In this document: piece by piece, positions 9,531 through 51,916 of the stretch | Layout: the number at the start of each line of letters is the position of its first letter | Numbering within the stretch: position 1 is the stretch's first letter | Source: Panorpa germanica | Lineage: Eukaryota; Arthropoda; Insecta; Mecoptera; Panorpidae | Assembly (NCBI GenBank): GCA_963678705.1 | Contig: OY783207.1 | Location: 3,968,001 to 4,032,000 of the forward strand | DNA: 64,000 nucleotides | Direction: 5' to 3' | The notes under the pieces: generated by a model | What the model saw: only the letters and a program-made list of their open reading frames with translations | Databases searched by the model: none | What the model was told of the DNA's origin: nothing | Made by a program: the position numbers and the translations under genes

Positions 9531-10076
9531 AACCCAGTAAACAATTTGGTGAAGTGTCCTGTTTTGTGACGTTTCTATCATTATTGCACTTCAATTATAG
9601 TTCGCATCAACTTTATCTCCATTTGTATTTCGACAGGTGGAATGGTTTCGCCATTTGTATCCGATAAAATGGATATTTCATATGAACGACGGTGAGAAGC
9701 TGAACTATAAATGACCTATACAGATTCATTCATAATCCCTTTACTTTTGTAGAACGAAATATGAAATGTAGAAATATCATAAAAATATTCTTTTTCTCTA
9801 CAACATCGTTTTTACATTTCAAAATGTTTATTTTTCATTTACCAGAACATCACAGAAAAAGAAACAGGATATATCTGTCTCTGTTACACTTCAATGGTTT
9901 ATTTGCAATTTTATTACGTTCTGGTACGGTATTTGAAGGTGAAGGTGAAGTGCCATTTGCAGTTCATATCCCTGAAACTTCACTGGACGAGTGAAATCAA
10001 ATTGAATTGTTTCATGACCAACAAATCATGCGCATCTTCAATATAATGTCAAAGTGACTCCAAAATGTTTACTCGG
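9531..10076 (+). mobile_element. MITE family 2, copy 1, split by a ~300-bp insertion
   Basis: Left end AACCCAGTAAACAATTTGGT and right end CTCCAAAATGTTTACTCGG match the termini of the copies at 48168 and 48485. Between the shared blocks GAGAAGCTGAAC and TTTCATGACC lie ~300 bp (about 9706-10008) that the other copies lack, so a second sequence inserted here. The 77-codon frame at 9761-9994 lies wholly in that insertion and shows no known motif. Confidence 0.72.
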
Positions 10077-12139: not shown

Positions 12140-12355
12140 TGAATTATAATTACAGTTTACATCGAGTCTTCTTGGTGAGCGCACGTATTTACAATAAACA
12201 AAACAATAAAATAAATAGTGATCTTTTTTTTTTGCAAATTATAATATTTTTTTTCGTGATTTATTTTTATTTAAATTATAATTTATATTATTATTAAGTG
12301 TTATTAATAAGAAGTGAAGTAACTTCTATTTAATTATCACTGGTTAATTAACAAT

Positions 12356-13783
12356 ATGGATATGGAGGTTGAACCTCCCGATAAAAACCCGAACAATAAA
12401 AACAACTCTGTGACTAACAAATCATTTCCTACAGATAAAACATCCAGTGATATAACAGAAAACTTAAATAACAATAGTGACAATGTTAAAAAAATATTTA
12501 ATAATTTATACAACACAGAAACAAAATATGACTCGTATAAAGTAATGATAGTTAAAAATAATAGTGATGGAAATACATTTTTTAGTTCTCTTAAATTAGC
12601 AGAAATAATTTGTAAAATTAGCAATAAATCTAATATAATAGAAATTAAAAAAGTGGGAAGAAATAGAGTAATCGTTCAATGTGCTAATGCAGTACTAGCT
12701 AACGAAATTACCAAATCAACATTGCTGAAAAACAATGGGTATGAAGCGTTTATCCCATTTTACTGGTGCACAAAAGTAGCTATTATAAAAGGTGTTGATA
12801 TTGAATATTCGGAAGATACAATTTTAAATAATATAGAGTGTCCACCTTTTAAAGTAACGAGAGTGCAAAGGTTAAATCGAAAACTAAGAGTTGACGGAGC
12901 TATAAAATATGAACCCAGTACAACAGTGAAATTATTCTTTGAAGGACTTGCTATTCCTGCTTATGTTTACATGTGGAGAGTGAGACGAGCATGTGAACCA
13001 TTTGTACAACAGACGATACAATGTTATAATTGTTTTAAATTTGGACATGCAGCCACAAAATGTAGAGCAAAAGTAGCAAAATGTAAATTCTGCGGAAGTG
13101 AAGATCATTTACGTACTGCATGCACATCTCCTAATCCGACATGCATAAATTGTAAACTTAACCACGAGGCTACAGACAATGAATGTCCTGAAAAAAAAAG
13201 ACAAATCAAGATAAAAGATCTCATGGCCCAACACAATCTCAGTTTTTATGAAGCAAAATTAGAATTAACAGAAAAAAATACAGACTATTTATACTCAGTA
13301 AGAACTCAAAACTCTTTTGAAGCTCTAAACTACAATGAGACTTTTCCAAATATCACTAATAAATACAATAGTATCAACATAATTCCAACATACAAACCAA
13401 ACCCTTTAACCAGAAGAACCAATACCAGAGTGAATAAATCAAATACAGGTAACTCATTACAAAGATCTTACAGTCAACCACAACCTACGACATCCAGTAA
13501 AGAACCATTTCCAAAAAGAAGAAGAGAAGAAAAGAAACCTAACAATGAAGAAAGTGACACATTCCTTAAGAAAACTAATCAAGAAAAAAACAGAAAGCAA
13601 ATCAACCAAGAGAAACCTGATATTACAATGGAAAATTATGATAATGATACCTGCTATAAATCAATATATAATAAAAATAATGATGACAAAATTAAAGATA
13701 CAAACAAAGACCCTAATATTACATCCCAATCTCTTAGAAGCTACAAGAAACAAATATCTAGTGTACAATGGCCAAACTCGTAA
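12356..13783 (+). CDS. LINE ORF1 (Gag-like RNA-binding protein with zinc knuckles)
   Basis: 475 residues. The first ATG after the 5' UTR starts a frame that opens with an Asn/Lys-rich, low-complexity region (about 1-60). A globular region (about 60-215) contains VMIVKNN and KVGRNRVIVQC, probably the RRM-like part of such Gag proteins. Three CCHC-type knuckles follow at about residues 223-276: CYNCFKFGHAATKC and CKFCGSEDHLRTAC (both C-x2-C-x4-H-x4-C), then a looser CINCKLNHEATDNEC. The C-terminal ~200 residues are basic and Lys/Asn/Pro/Ser-rich. The family function is to bind element RNA and form the ribonucleoprotein used in retrotransposition. An overlapping 110-codon frame at 13545-13877 is a shadow of the A-rich 3' part. 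Confidence 0.9.
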   Translation: MDMEVEPPDKNPNNKNNSVTNKSFPTDKTSSDITENLNNNSDNVKKIFNNLYNTETKYDSYKVMIVKNNSDGNTFFSSLKLAEIICKISNKSNIIEIKKVGRNRVIVQCANAVLANEITKSTLLKNNGYEAFIPFYWCTKVAIIKGVDIEYSEDTILNNIECPPFKVTRVQRLNRKLRVDGAIKYEPSTTVKLFFEGLAIPAYVYMWRVRRACEPFVQQTIQCYNCFKFGHAATKCRAKVAKCKFCGSEDHLRTACTSPNPTCINCKLNHEATDNECPEKKRQIKIKDLMAQHNLSFYEAKLELTEKNTDYLYSVRTQNSFEALNYNETFPNITNKYNSINIIPTYKPNPLTRRTNTRVNKSNTGNSLQRSYSQPQPTTSSKEPFPKRRREEKKPNNEESDTFLKKTNQEKNRKQINQEKPDITMENYDNDTCYKSIYNKNNDDKIKDTNKDPNITSQSLRSYKKQISSVQWPNS

Positions 13784-13980
13784 GAAAACATCAATATATA
13801 AATTAAGTTTATTTTTTAATAAAAACTCTATTCACATCACTAAACCAAATCGGTTTATAAATTTACTAAAATATTAAATCAACAACAATTATATAAACAT
13901 AAAGAAAAAATAAAATATATAAATAAATCGAAAAACAAGACATTAGATATAAAAATTAATCATTAATTAAAACAGTTAAA

Positions 13981-16900
13981 ATGATAAATTTTATTCAATG
14001 GAATTGCAGAGGAGTCAGATATATTAAAGAGGAACTACAACATATGTTACAGAAGCATAACATACATATATGCATACTATCAGAAACGTTTTTAACAAAA
14101 AATCTCAATTTCAACATCAAAGGTTATTTTATTGAAAGAGAAGATAGGATACAGAATACAAACTATAATCCCCACGGGGGTGTTGCTATCTTGATTCATA
14201 AATCTATAAAATATAAACGAGTAATGCTAAATAACCCATTTAATTCGGTCGAAATAGTTGGAATAATTTTAACACATAACGAAACTGATGTAATATGTAT
14301 TTTATCAATCTATGCTAAACCGAATCATAAACTATCTAATTCTAATTGGTCACAGATAAAACAACAAATAGATGTTCCTGTTATACTTGCTGGAGATTTT
14401 AACGCGACTAATCTTGCTTGGGATATAAATTGTCCAGGTAGTCAGTATGAAGGTAACGAATTGTTAGATTTCATAGAAAACGAAAATCTAAATATTATCA
14501 ACGAGGATAAACCAACTAGAGTAAGCAATCTCAGTACAAGGGACAGTATATTGGATCTCACATTGGTATCAATGACGTTAACACAACAAATTACTTCGTG
14601 GCAAGTTCTTGCAGATAGCTTAGGTAGTGATCACTACCCAATTTTTTTCTGTTTGAATGACTATAATAAAGACCGTTACCGTACATCTGAATATTTAACG
14701 AGGAGAAATTTCCGAAAAGCAGATTGGGAGAAATATAGCCTTGAAATAGAAAGCAGAATTTCAAACCTTAGCACAAATGGAATCACAAGTAATCCCCAAG
14801 ATGTTGAAAACAAATACAACCAATTTAGAGATGTTATTAATAATTCGGCAGACATACATATCCCATCTACCAGATTGTATAATATAACTCCTAATAAAAT
14901 AAAACCGTCTTGGTGGGACACAGAGTGCAATAAAATGATAGCTCAAAGAAAATTAGCACTAACTATTTTTAATAAAAACATGACAATGGCGAATTATTTA
15001 AATTATAAAAAACATCAAGCTAAAACCAGACGATATTTTAGAGCCAGAAAAAAAATAGAATGGCAAAATTTCTGCGAGAATTTAAACCCAAACACAACAA
15101 CCAACATTGTCTGGAATAATATAAGAAAAATTAACAATAAAAGCTATAGTACTAAAAGGATAAGTGATACTGAAAATTTAATAGAAGAATTCATTAAAAA
15201 AAAATTTCCACAGAACAACAATTTAAATATTACTACCACCATCATCGTAAAAGATAATTTTCTAGATAATAACATAAATAAAAATGAAGTAAAATTCGCG
15301 TTAAATCATAATAAAAACAGTAGCACAGGATTTGATAGAATAAATTACAAAATGATACAAAACTTACCTGACAATGCAATAAATCATCTTACACAAATAT
15401 ATAATCAGTCATTAAACACTGCTGATATACCATTAGACTGGAAAAAACATATCGTTGTTCCTATATTAAAAACAGGAAAAGATCCAAACAAAGAAGAATC
15501 ATTCAGACCAATTACTTTACTATCATGTATGGGCAAAACTATGGAATCCATCATCAAAAACAGACTGGAGTGGTATCTCGAACATAATAAAAGATTACCT
15601 GAGTTACAATTTGCGTTTAGAAAAACAAGAAGTACACAGCATAACTTAAACATATTGAATATCGATATTCAAAGAACATACAGTAAAAATCATTATATGA
15701 TAGCTGCTTTCATTGACATTGAAGCTGCTTATGACAATGTTAATCTAAAAATATTAAAAGAAAAAGTAGAAAACATAGGTATATCTTCCAAAATATCCAA
15801 CTGGATTATAAACTACTTCCAAAATAGAGAAATAACAGTTAGATACAATAATAAGTTAACTGGTCCTATACTATGTAATCACGGAATTCCACAAGGCTCA
15901 ATATTATCTCCCTTATTATTCAACATATACACAGAAAAGTTAACAACATTATCAGATAACAACACAACAGTACTGATGTATGCAGATGACATGGTTATTT
16001 ATAGTATGGGCCATACACAAGATATAGCTCAAAACAGATTACAATCGAAATTAAGAAAACTAGATATTTTACTAAAGGAAATCAAATTAAATATATCGTC
16101 AGAAAAAAGTAAAATAGTTATATTTACAAGGCATAGAATAAACTGCAGTCCAAAAATAACCATCAGAAATAAAAATATAACTGTTAGTTCAAATACCAAA
16201 TTTCTGGGTATATTCTTTGATACGAAAAGCACTTGGGCGAAAGAAATTGCACATATTATTAACAAATGTCAAAAAGGCTTAAATTTGATGCGATGTATAG
16301 CAGGATACAAATGGGGCGCACACCCAACAACCTTAATAAAAATATATAAAGCTATTGTTAGACCGCATATTGACTATTCTAGTACTATGATCTGCACCGC
16401 AAATAACTCAAGATTAAAAAAAATTGAAATTATACAAAACAAATGTTTAAGAATAATATTAGGTGCAATGGTTTCAACACCAATCCAAATCCTCAACTAT
16501 CAAACTAATATTCCTCCGGTAAATATCAGAATACAACAAATATCAGACAGTTTCTTTTGTAAAAACAGACATAACTCATGTGGCCCCTTAAATACAAGAT
16601 TATCTAAACTATATGTTCTTTATAATAAACCATATTGGACAACTCATAAAAAACCGGCACTTTTAACTAGTTTTGATAGATATAATAACTTGAACTTAGA
16701 GGTACACAACATTATACCTTTTTTCAAATTTCCATTAGAAATAAGCATGACAACAATACATACAGAAATAAATTTGTTCAAGAAGAATGACAGTAAGGAA
16801 ATAACTTATCAAAAATATATGGAATATATAACAAAAGATGATATAAACTGGAGTATATGGTTTACCGATGGTTCATTCGAAAAAAACTCTAAAACTGGAG

Positions 16901-17709
16901 GAATTGGCATTTTCAATTATAATACAGATCAACAGTATAAATACAAACTTAACAACATCACAAATTCTTATAATACAGAAATAACAGCAATTATGAAATT
17001 ACTAGAAATAATACAAAAAACTGACAATAAAAATATATTAATCTTCACAGATTCTCGTAGTGTTTGTGTATCTTTAAATAACAATAAATTCAAAAACAAT
17101 AATAATAACAAAATATGTTCAATTAAAGAATATCTTTTAAAAATGGAAAAAAATGATATCAATGTTAAACTTATTTGGATTCCTGGACATGTAGGCATAA
17201 AAGGAAACGAAATGGCTGACAAACTGGCCAAAGAAGCTTGTGTAGATGGGGAAATAATAGAAATAAATTGGTCAATAAATGATTCCAAAAAAATAATTAA
17301 AGAAAATTGTATGGCAGAATGGCAGAATATATATAATGAGAAAAGTCAAAGTACTGGAAAAAATTTTTTTGCAGCGAATCAAAAAATTCCAACAACCACA
17401 TGGTTTAATAAAAACCATTCACGAAGATATATTTCAACAAATTGTCGAATGAAATCTGGGCATTCTAGATGTCCAGCTCATCTGTACAAAATAAATATAA
17501 AAGACACACCAAATTGTATATGTGGAGAAGAAGGGTCTTTGGACCATATAATTCTAGGGTGTCATCTTTTAACATCAAAAATTGATAGACTTTTAAATGA
17601 TTTATGTAATGTAACACAGTTCCCAGTCAATATGTCCTGTTTAATGACAAGTGAAGCAACGGCGGAAATATTAACAAACTTTGTGATAGAAAATAATATA
17701 GAAGTGTAA
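13981..17709 (+). CDS. LINE ORF2: endonuclease, reverse transcriptase, RNase H
   Basis: 1242 residues, uninterrupted. The N-terminal AP-endonuclease domain (1 to ~230) shows N8 (QWNCRG), E35 (LSETFL), the GDFN motif at 138-141 and the SDH motif at 216-218, all expected active-site elements. The reverse transcriptase (about 480-760) has FRPITLL, an AFRKTRST block, GIPQGSILSPLLF, the catalytic YADD (Y667, D669, D670) and an FLGIFFD block. The RNase H domain has D963 (TDGS), E1000, D1024 (TDS) and, after the WIPGHVG motif, D1080. A C-x-C...H...C-type motif (CICGEEGSLDHIILGC) lies at ~1179-1194. The protein would nick target DNA and prime reverse transcription there. Its start lies 197 bp after ORF1 and has no overlap, so translation would need reinitiation or an internal start. 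Confidence 0.95.
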   Translation: MINFIQWNCRGVRYIKEELQHMLQKHNIHICILSETFLTKNLNFNIKGYFIEREDRIQNTNYNPHGGVAILIHKSIKYKRVMLNNPFNSVEIVGIILTHNETDVICILSIYAKPNHKLSNSNWSQIKQQIDVPVILAGDFNATNLAWDINCPGSQYEGNELLDFIENENLNIINEDKPTRVSNLSTRDSILDLTLVSMTLTQQITSWQVLADSLGSDHYPIFFCLNDYNKDRYRTSEYLTRRNFRKADWEKYSLEIESRISNLSTNGITSNPQDVENKYNQFRDVINNSADIHIPSTRLYNITPNKIKPSWWDTECNKMIAQRKLALTIFNKNMTMANYLNYKKHQAKTRRYFRARKKIEWQNFCENLNPNTTTNIVWNNIRKINNKSYSTKRISDTENLIEEFIKKKFPQNNNLNITTTIIVKDNFLDNNINKNEVKFALNHNKNSSTGFDRINYKMIQNLPDNAINHLTQIYNQSLNTADIPLDWKKHIVVPILKTGKDPNKEESFRPITLLSCMGKTMESIIKNRLEWYLEHNKRLPELQFAFRKTRSTQHNLNILNIDIQRTYSKNHYMIAAFIDIEAAYDNVNLKILKEKVENIGISSKISNWIINYFQNREITVRYNNKLTGPILCNHGIPQGSILSPLLFNIYTEKLTTLSDNNTTVLMYADDMVIYSMGHTQDIAQNRLQSKLRKLDILLKEIKLNISSEKSKIVIFTRHRINCSPKITIRNKNITVSSNTKFLGIFFDTKSTWAKEIAHIINKCQKGLNLMRCIAGYKWGAHPTTLIKIYKAIVRPHIDYSSTMICTANNSRLKKIEIIQNKCLRIILGAMVSTPIQILNYQTNIPPVNIRIQQISDSFFCKNRHNSCGPLNTRLSKLYVLYNKPYWTTHKKPALLTSFDRYNNLNLEVHNIIPFFKFPLEISMTTIHTEINLFKKNDSKEITYQKYMEYITKDDINWSIWFTDGSFEKNSKTGGIGIFNYNTDQQYKYKLNNITNSYNTEITAIMKLLEIIQKTDNKNILIFTDSRSVCVSLNNNKFKNNNNNKICSIKEYLLKMEKNDINVKLIWIPGHVGIKGNEMADKLAKEACVDGEIIEINWSINDSKKIIKENCMAEWQNIYNEKSQSTGKNFFAANQKIPTTTWFNKNHSRRYISTNCRMKSGHSRCPAHLYKINIKDTPNCICGEEGSLDHIILGCHLLTSKIDRLLNDLCNVTQFPVNMSCLMTSEATAEILTNFVIENNIEV

Positions 17710-48167: not shown

Positions 48168-48410
48168 ACCCAGTAAACTATTTGGTGAAGTGTCCTCTTT
48201 TGTAACGTTTCTATCATTATTGCGCTTCAATTTACTTTGCATCAACTTTATCTTCATTTGTATTCCGACAGGTGGAGTGGTTTTACAATTTGTAGTCGAT
48301 GAAATAGACATTTCATTTGAACGACTATGAGAAACTGAACTCTTTCATGACAAAAAAGTCAAGCGCATCTTCAATATGATGGAAAAGTGACTCCAAAATG
48401 TTTACTTGGT
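48168..48410 (+). mobile_element. MITE family 2, copy 2
   Basis: 243 bp. Left end ACCCAGTAAACTATTTGGTG; right end CTCCAAAATGTTTACTTGGT is its imperfect reverse complement. The interior matches the 9531 copy without that copy's insertion. A short frame at 48142-48330 is incidental. Confidence 0.82.
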
Positions 48411-48484
48411 ATTATATGTAAGGTAAGGTGTTAAGGGACAATTCACTAAAATAATAAAAGCTATTAAATACGAGATCTTCAAAG

Positions 48485-48728
48485 AACCCAGTAAACATTT
48501 TGGAGCCACTTAGACATCATATTGAAGATGCGTATGATTTTTTTGTCATGAAAGAGTTCAGTTTCTCACAGTCGTTCATATGAAATGTCTATTTTATCGG
48601 CTACAAATGAAGAAACCACTCCACCTGTCGGAATACAAATGAAAATAAAGTTGACGCGAACTATAATTGAAGTGAAATACTGTTAGAAATGTCACAAAAA
48701 GGAACACTTCACCAAATTGTTTACTGGG
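48485..48728 (-). mobile_element. MITE family 2, copy 3 (opposite orientation)
   Basis: The same element as 48168-48410 in reverse, 74 bp away. Ends AACCCAGTAAACATTTTGGA and ACCAAATTGTTTACTGGG. The two copies together form a ~560-bp palindrome-like structure. Confidence 0.84.
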
Positions 48729-49782: not shown

Positions 49783-51856
49783 ATGTTCGTTCACATTTTT
49801 CTACTTTCAATATTGCTTTTTTCAACAATAGAATGTGACAAGTTTAATGGTAATTTATGTATTCTAACAAGCCCATCAGGTTATTTATTCACTTCACAAC
49901 AAGAACCTATTGGCATTAGAACGGTGAAGAATATATTTGCAGTTGCAACAGGAAATCCAAAGAAAGCACGCAAGTCAACATGGAAGGGTAACATTATTAT
50001 TATTATATTATATTAATTGTATGCCTTTCGGCTTTACAATCTACATTATTATATTTCTTAATGCATTTCATATAAATTCAAAGTTAAAAACTAAACTTAA
50101 ACTATTCTAGACTATTACTACTTCGAATAGTCTTTTTTTCTTGATCCTCTCTCTTCATGTCCCCTACTCCTCCTTTATTCACACCGTTTCCTGCTTCTCC
50201 TTTCTTATTGCCTGTATCTTCATTTACCACCTCTTGCCTTCCTTGTCTCCTCTCGACAAACCCTCTATTATCTTTTCACTATCCTTCCTGCCTTCTCTCT
50301 TCGTTTTCACTTCTCCACTTATGTCTATTACAGGAATAGACGCTCTATCTTTACTATTTCCTCTTGACTGTCTTACTTTACTATTTCTTCTTGACTCTCT
50401 ACCTTTACTATGTTATTATTGTCTCTATCTCCGTCATCTACCTCTTGTCCTCATCTCCTTTCCGAAAATCCTCTAATAACATTTAACATTTAACAAACAT
50501 TGCTAGTAAACAATTTAGTAAATATTACAGTTCAGTTGTAGTTCGCAACAACTTTTTCTTTGCTTGAATGCTGAGAGGTATAATATCTAAATATCTAATA
50601 ATAATAATTTTTCTATTGGTAGCACTGTACTGATTTTTTATCGTAAATATGAAATCGGTAAACCTGTTTGTATACAGCAGCTGGCTGAATGTGTCCACTT
50701 TAGTAGTGCATAGCGAATATAGCTTTATGGCTTAAAGCGAGTCAAAATGGATGCGGGAATTTAGTAGTTAAGTAGAGCTACCAACTTTACGGGGAAAAAA
50801 ACTATAAAATAATTATGGCGAGCCTTTTAAGTTACTTTTTGAACAGACCTCGTATATAATCGACTGCAAAAAAACTTATAAATATGATTTCGAATGGAAT
50901 CCAAATTATTTAGTAGGAAATCACTACATCTTTTATTAATATTTCAAATCGAGTTTATTCCTTGCTTAGGTTTGACTGTCAAAAATCCGTTCTGCAGTGG
51001 AGATATTGTCATCGTATTGCAACTGGAAGAATTTGCAGGATGTGAGTTAGGTAATTTAAAGCTAAATGCAACATTTAAAGTAGACGCAGACGTGAATAAA
51101 GTTTGGGAATTTCTTCAATCACTTCCGGAACACAATCACCACGCTAATATCATTAAACTAGATGTCGAGAATGCAAATTCAGTCGGAAGTATTTTTAAAT
51201 CGAACTCGCACGAGAGCGTTAGGACAAATTTGGATGCACATGTGAAGGAAAATCATAAATTCATTACGGAAATAAATATGATCACACATATTACGAAGAA
51301 TTTAGATAAAATCAAAGAATTTAAGAGAAAAGATGTGTTCTGGTTTAAGATGAAGTCGTTGGCTCCATTTTTAAAGAAACACAGAGGGAGCTTACACATA
51401 CGGAGTGGATTGAACACGTTGGGAAACCATATCAACGCACTTAAAACGGAATTTGCTAAACATTACGATGTTGATAAGTTAATGTTTGTTGTGATTTCCA
51501 ATACCGGTTATTATCGAGAGACTACTAAAGAAAATGAAGGCAATCGTGGGTATGATACAATTTCCGAAGAAGAAGAACCAACAAATTTTGATTGGGTTCC
51601 AGGTGAAAGAGGAAGACATGACGATAAGACAATAGCAGCATGGGAGGAAGAATTTATGGTTCGTTATTATAAGGTTGATAACTTTACAGAAGACCACATT
51701 GAAGACTATTCGGTCGAAACGCATTTGTTTCTTTGGCCATCTTTAGGTTTAGTGTTTAGCTTAATCGCTGTTTGTTTATTTATTATGGACATGGATGTGG
51801 GAAGGGATACCGCTATTTATAGATTGACGGAACCAAGGAAAAAATCAAATAGTTGA
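49783..51856 (+). CDS. Divergent ATP6AP2-like (V-ATPase accessory subunit 2 / renin receptor)
   Basis: Two exons, 49783-49987 and 50970-51856, with a GT/AG phase-1 intron; 363 residues, close to the ~350 of ATP6AP2. Exon 1 starts at an ATG with a signal peptide (MFVHIFLLSILLFSTIEC) and ends STWKG. Splicing restores W-x-G-L-x-V-x-N-x-F across the junction (WKGLTVKNPF), a pattern found near the N-terminus of ATP6AP2. The C-terminus has one membrane helix (about 318-338) and a short tail with MDxGRDxxIYRxT, the family's strongest signature. The middle is very diverged: I see no furin-type R-x-K/R-R site where vertebrate proteins are cut. The family supports V-ATPase assembly in endomembranes and Wnt/PCP signalling. 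Only one intron suggests a retrocopy with a later intron, or a fast-evolving paralogue. Confidence 0.78.
50022..50480 (-). mobile_element. LINE family B, copy 4, in the intron of the ATP6AP2-like gene
   Basis: Only the 3' UTR remains. The reverse complement contains GATACAGGCAATAAGAAAGG, AGAAGCAGGAAACGG, TCTAGAATAGTTTAAGTTTA and TAGATTGTAAAGCCGAAAGG, all matching 1700-1960. It is antisense to the host gene and makes up half of the intron. The plus-strand frames at 50141-50476 are the complement of its purine-rich strand. Confidence 0.8.
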
Positions 51857-51910: not shown

Positions 51911-51916
51911 AATAAA
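51911..51916 (+). terminator. Poly(A) signal of the ATP6AP2-like gene
   Basis: AATAAA 55 bp after the stop codon, in a plausible position for 3' end formation. Confidence 0.6.

Follow-up and report, generated by a model that had tools for sequence, protein, structure and literature searches.

A 64,000-nt stretch of chromosome 4 of the scorpionfly Panorpa germanica (Mecoptera; C4:3968001-4032000, here called the window, in whose coordinates positions are given unless a contig is named) carries on its forward strand a gene of two predicted exons (Table 1). This gene is probably a genuine protein-coding one, a strongly diverged paralogue of ATP6AP2 that would have been derived from mRNA and would act as a specialised accessory subunit of the V-ATPase, with the testis as the best single guess for where it does so.

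Table 1. Coordinates of the features described, in window positions except for the ATP6AP1 copy
Feature	Position	Strand	Details
Exon 1, coding	49783..49987	+	N-terminal hydrophobic segment resembling a signal, and start of the RENR_N domain; ends with the first base of the Gly69 codon
Intron, phase 1, 982 nt	49988..50969	+	GTAACA...TTGCTTAG; splicing inferred from sequence
Young LINE-like 3' fragment in intron	49996..50476	-	Flanked by the 7-nt TAACATT at 49989-49995 and 50477-50483; third TAACATT at 50484-50490
Exon 2, coding, including stop	50970..51856	+	Remaining luminal domain, linker, membrane helix and cytosolic tail
RENR_N (PF25294) match, residues 22-245	49846..51499	+	Spans the intron; E 2.4e-17, 63.9 bits, cut-off 39.4
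Renin_r (PF07850) match, residues 306-360	51680..51844	+	E 4.1e-10, 40.0 bits, cut-off 27.8; includes helix and IYRLT tail
AATAAA, possible polyadenylation signal	51911..51916	+	55 nt past the stop
Intronless, diverged full-length ATP6AP1/Ac45 copy	C8:16759692-16760981 (L014:2193-3482)	+	Single 438-aa open frame; 430 aa when counted from its first ATG

An initial annotation of the window had proposed an ATP6AP2 homologue composed of two exons joined in phase 1, to be checked by a renin-receptor profile search, and the search bears this out. The joined protein exceeds both Pfam renin-receptor cut-offs (Table 1), and in a phmmer search of the PDB it matches ATP6AP2 chains, with 6xbw_r as the best (E 2.1e-8). 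Joining the exons between the GT at 49988 and the AG ending at 50969 gives an uninterrupted frame of 363 aa, close to the approximate length proposed, with the junction lying within the Gly of W-K-G-L-T-V-K-N-P-F and thus restoring the motif W-x-G-L-x-V-x-N-x-F. When donors at 49960-50020 and acceptors at 50880-51000 were scanned, four GT/AG pairs kept the frame, and the W-x-G-L junction was absent from the three others. Because the exon-2 frame alone reaches just 35.9 bits for RENR_N, below the cut-off of 39.4, as against 63.9 bits for the joined protein, and exon 1 by itself matches no Pfam family, restoring the domain requires the splice. The last part of the intron (50894-50971) continues the exon-2 frame and includes an ATG, after which comes a hydrophobic leader resembling a signal (MESKLFSRKSLHLLLIFQIEFIPCLG); translation might alternatively begin there, in which case exon 1 would be left out. 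Other searches were uninformative: the predicted structure of exon 2 alone had a mean pLDDT of 32.6 and was unusable, the viral contigs searched gave no match, and a Pfam scan of two of the three forward frames of the 44-56 kb part of the window found no family.

Profile searches of the P. germanica genome covered 464,208,970 bases in 249 contigs. The assembly, GCA_963678705.1, is given in the available text of its description as 464,228,243 bp in 254 scaffolds with an X chromosome of 47.99 Mb, and contigs C4, C5, C8 and C21 are consistent with chromosomes 4, 5, 8 and X, respectively (PMC11464959). PF07850 was matched in two places, at 105.7 bits on C5 and at 43.1 bits in the window (two of nine scored candidates), while the five matches to PF25294 (E up to 10) were all exons of these same C5 and C4 genes, none of them singly over the cut-off. 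In a model built by hand from sequence alone, the C5 gene has six exons, encodes 332 aa and contains introns of 184, 83, 516, 1871 and 1154 nt in phases 1, 0, 0, 0 and 0. Its protein scores 161 bits for RENR_N and 102.7 bits for Renin_r in Pfam, and its residues 6-331 align to the solved ATP6AP2 structure (6xbw_r), with RRSR opposite RKTR. The second, conserved ATP6AP2 that the initial annotation had suggested looking for in the same genome was therefore found, as the only other Renin_r match, and because it is present the window gene is a diverged paralogue and not the species' only, odd copy.

The two proteins align by blastp at E 5e-17 with 82 of 367 aligned columns identical (~22%). Identity amounts to 3/16 in residues 1-20, 20/54 in residues 21-76, 7/31 in the linker and 22/52 in helix and tail, and the figure for residues 77-245 (30/164) agrees with the strongly diverged middle region described beforehand. 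The further description of the gene as fast-evolving is supported just by comparison with the conserved copy (RENR_N 63.9 vs 161 bits, Renin_r 40.0 vs 102.7 bits); of the term specialised paralogue, the presence of that copy on C5 upholds the part that makes the gene a diverged paralogue, and specialisation goes beyond it. Neither the likely origin as a retrocopy, nor the intronless ATP6AP1 copy, nor the young LINE-like insertion described below featured in the initial annotation.

Several features of the window protein set it apart from its sister. Hydropathy, the sole basis for these two assignments, shows a hydrophobic N-terminus and one C-terminal hydrophobic stretch, with a helix at about residues 319-347, which fits the signal peptide and single C-terminal membrane helix predicted earlier. 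A furin-type processing site before the helix is a usual feature of ATP6AP2, although it lies outside the Pfam criterion; its absence had also been noticed, and indeed R-x-x-R occurs nowhere in the 363 residues of the window protein, whereas the conserved copy has RRSR. The tail reads MDVGRDTAIYRLT, as against MDPGRDSIIYRMT in the conserved copy, and ends in KKSNS, so that it lacks a KKxx-type end, which we take to be the ER-retrieval signal of ATP6AP2; the conserved copy ends in KKDN. Cysteines are found at residues 26, 77 and 93, plus one at 18 near the end of the signal, whereas the conserved copy lacks cysteine beyond its signal. The window protein has two N-glycosylation motifs versus one, and its linker is longer and acidic in comparison with that of the conserved copy.

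The intron of the window gene contains a LINE-like fragment, its type judged from neighbouring copies and from a TAA-rich tail, which was inserted 8 nt into the intron and left the GT donor intact beside the target-site duplicate; the chance of a shared 7-mer in such flanks is ~1.8%. With 40 of 2912 candidates scored, 39 of the 40 other listed matches to nucleotides 6-488 of the intron are 93-96% identical over most of that length (the remaining one, 54 nt long, is 84% identical), which argues that the insertion is young. Once it is subtracted, an intron of about 487-494 nt is left, with the GT donor kept. Creation of the intron by the LINE-like element was ruled out on these grounds, since the insertion is young and bounded by TAACATT repeats inside an intron that keeps its GT without it; the intron thus predates the fragment. 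Other repeats were seen in the window. Two adjoining open frames at 12323-17709, the second with endonuclease, reverse transcriptase and RNase H domains and the first with no Pfam match, seemingly form an intact LINE, and a palindromic repeat of ~560 nt upstream of the gene (48169-48728), with relatives at 9533-10076 and on C16 (L030), reads as a foldback or MITE-like element.

The window gene has kept its frame at this divergence, with no stop in its 363 codons. A run of 322 consecutive open codons has a chance of ~1.7e-12 at the composition of the window, in which ~1.7e-8 such frames are expected, and in neutral simulations starting from the C5 coding sequence none of the 200 replicates run at each of five divergence levels remained open, the mean number of stops being 10 to 23. 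Codon-position identity between the window and C5 genes (0.44/0.56/0.32) was discarded as evidence of purifying selection because it hardly exceeds that of codon-shuffled controls (means of 0.40/0.48/0.31 and maxima of 0.50/0.56/0.39 in 40 shuffles). The missing positive result of that test could be reconciled with a decaying pseudogene that has stayed open by luck, as could the strong divergence, the changed family motifs and the young insertion so close to the donor. Such decay is nevertheless highly improbable given a frame that is open over 363 codons when identity to the C5 copy is 22%, the failure of every neutral replicate at all five levels, the donor left intact beside the insertion and the passing of both Pfam cut-offs.

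The origin of the gene is suggested by its introns. All five modelled introns of the C5 gene are missing from it, which points to retroposition, and its own intron matches the position of no modelled C5 intron, lying 16 nt downstream of intron 2 and in phase 1 instead of 0. The window gene is most likely an old retrocopy in which an intron was gained later or slid and the frame was preserved by selection; after so much divergence, any poly(A) tract and target-site duplication would be expected to have worn away. A single intron is unlike a plain retrocopy, and it requires either later gain or sliding from parental intron 2. We assume that a human exon boundary follows codon 56, which would make intron 2 ancient; a literature search for this boundary found nothing. 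According to the portions available of two Drosophila studies, retroposed V-ATPase duplicates are common (PMC10452791) and intron sliding was considered the probable origin of 9 of 31 novel intron positions (PMC2891723). Such sliding, together with the short distance of 16 nt and the age of the intron relative to the insertion inside it, would also accommodate a duplicate, made at the DNA level or from partly spliced RNA, that retained parental intron 2 with its sites shifted and lost the other four. That origin is rather unlikely, as the phase differs, a 16-nt shift would take several steps, and four introns would each have to be lost with no RNA intermediate, which is improbable.

A second accessory subunit, ATP6AP1, appears to have been duplicated as well. 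PF20520 had four matches in the genome, three of which exceeded the cut-off, on C21 (the X; 56.9 bits), C3 (44.8 bits) and C8 (46.3 bits). The loci on C21 and C3 match over several frames and are hence read as multi-exon, whereas that on C8 is a single open frame (Table 1), confirmed by Pfam at 41.1 bits (cut-off 25). Compared with the two other loci, the C8 copy has its best match in the X-linked gene (52.5% over 40 residues around the helix, versus 32.9% over 82 columns for the C3 gene); the X-linked gene is the likely parent, so that the copy appears to have moved off the X. The copy retains RFKR and has one cysteine remaining, so that the cysteine pair reported for AC45 in the part of that study available (PMC8541823) has been lost. 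In P. cognata, as far as the accessible text of that work goes, expression of X-linked genes is lower in male gonads and the X has a smaller share of male-biased genes (6.1% vs 11.9%), while testis-specific genes are not significantly rarer there; RNA-seq from head, gonad and carcass of both sexes is described (PMC10715201).

The other V-ATPase subunits covered, V0 a, c, c'', d and V1 E, gave no such picture, as no diverged, intronless copies of this kind were recognised among the best-scoring genome candidates. The four V0 d matches fall in one stretch of C8 and the three V1 E matches in one stretch of C13. Forty-seven of the 48 V0 a matches lie on C6, and the other, a weak one on C9 (22.1 bits), was rejected as a chance match inside a long coiled-coil frame, presumably FKBP15-like. 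Several V0 a genes were recognised, all on chromosome 6 (C6:4606078-4637952, C6:2798929-2816762 and C6:8333791-8342575). At the V0 a loci L035-L038 and L040 the longest frame on the match strand is 212 aa, and among the twelve loci with frames listed a longer one occurs only at the window gene and the C8 ATP6AP1 copy. Matches to PF00137, assigned by eye, comprise a c-gene cluster on C16, one c'' gene and mitochondrial c genes. The cluster (C16:5598920-5612984) consists of tandem V0 c genes of the Vha16 type, and both of the genes read there (L030) have their halves in separate frames. A c-type match in a 194-aa frame on the X was considered as a third retrocopied subunit and dismissed, since it reads as an ordinary c'' gene with a GT...AG stretch, identified by eye, inside the frame; removal of this stretch presumably restores the c'' sequence.

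Expression of the window gene can be approached through the dCLEAR element, taken strictly as the octamer TCACATGA, TCATGTGA or TCACGTGA and scanned from -300 to +1200 of the ATG. Over this range it is present at the conserved C5 gene (-76) and at the X-linked ATP6AP1 gene (+290 and +301), and none was found at the window gene, the C8 ATP6AP1 copy or the C3 ATP6AP1 gene. Extension of the scan to -3000..+3500 of the window gene also gave no strict octamer, only TCATATGA at -1207. Since just 60 of 625 overlapping window segments of 1.5 kb contain the octamer, so that ~90% of starts would lack it anyway, the informative part is its presence in both likely parents. Nor do all ordinary genes have it: V0 d has none in the surrounding 4.5 kb, one lies 0.75 kb before the c'' frame, and 9 kb of the c cluster contain a single one. 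In the text available on the Drosophila V-ATPase paralogues, 11 of the 17 without dCLEAR are testis-expressed, although a statement in section 3.2 of the same paper points the other way, namely that dCLEAR is retained solely by genes expressed tissue-specifically (PMC10452791). By analogy with these paralogues, the missing element makes the testis the best single guess for expression of the window gene, for which it is a weak indicator. An accessory subunit specific to the soma or to neurons, as an ATP6AP2 counterpart of Drosophila CG31030, is unlikely. CG31030 is described, in the excerpted account, as neuron-specific and devoid of the predicted furin site that its ubiquitous paralogue has, which would parallel the window protein, although it may still be cleaved (PMC8541823); here, however, it is the multi-exon C3 ATP6AP1 gene, not a retrocopy, that looks like the CG31030-type gene.

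The features of the window gene would be accounted for by the following course of events. An ATP6AP2 mRNA from the chromosome 5 parent would have been reverse-transcribed to give a copy on chromosome 4, which kept its frame and would encode a type I membrane protein with signal peptide, luminal domain, one helix and a short tail. By analogy with ATP6AP2, helix and tail would sit in the V0 membrane part, and partner subunits would be bound by the luminal domain as the complex is assembled. Lacking the processing site and the KKxx-type end, the protein would remain uncleaved and be trafficked differently, giving a V-ATPase variant, and with the dCLEAR octamer of the conserved gene missing, the paralogue may be expressed elsewhere. 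It is tentatively suggested, with more doubt than confidence, that a further ATP6AP1-ATP6AP2 pair exists in Panorpa, whose members co-evolve and both go back to mRNA copies, the ATP6AP1 one no longer on the X, and that this pair turns the ordinary pump into a dedicated form, probably of the male germline; specialisation would lie with these two subunits alone, while the core subunits are shared.

Comparison with known systems places the gene among V-ATPase accessory subunits. It resembles ATP6AP2, the (pro)renin receptor or M8.9 (which we take to be ATP6AP2), in domain order, single C-terminal helix, IYRxT tail and length (363 aa against 332 aa on C5), and it differs in its ~22% identity to the C5 copy, the missing R-x-x-R, the end in KKSNS instead of KKDN, the longer acidic linker and the lumenal cysteines. 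Like the retroposed V-ATPase paralogues of Drosophila, it has fewer introns than its parent and no dCLEAR near its start. In the accessible part of the Drosophila work, Vha100-3, Vha16-2 to Vha16-5 and Vha39-2 are called testis-specific, and AC45 and M8.9 appear as one gene each (PMC10452791). Core subunits were copied in Drosophila, whereas in P. germanica both accessory subunits have a diverged copy, and none was recognised for V0 a, c, c'', d or V1 E. CG31030 and vertebrate ATP6AP1L/Ac45RP, as treated in the text available, likewise are accessory-subunit paralogues without the predicted furin site of their sister (PMC8541823), but they belong to the ATP6AP1 family and the window gene to that of ATP6AP2. 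A search of the literature on ATP6AP2 or renin receptor paralogues, duplications and retrogenes found no ATP6AP2 duplicate among the papers listed.

The window paralogue shows which parts of ATP6AP2 are variable, namely the processing site, the KKxx-type end and the greater part of the sequence, and which have been kept despite the divergence, namely the helix, the IYRxT tail and W-x-G-L-x-V-x-N-x-F. The presence of the C8 ATP6AP1 copy alongside the window gene adds interest, as the V-ATPase would, if the two copies act together, have been diversified through its accessory and not its core subunits.
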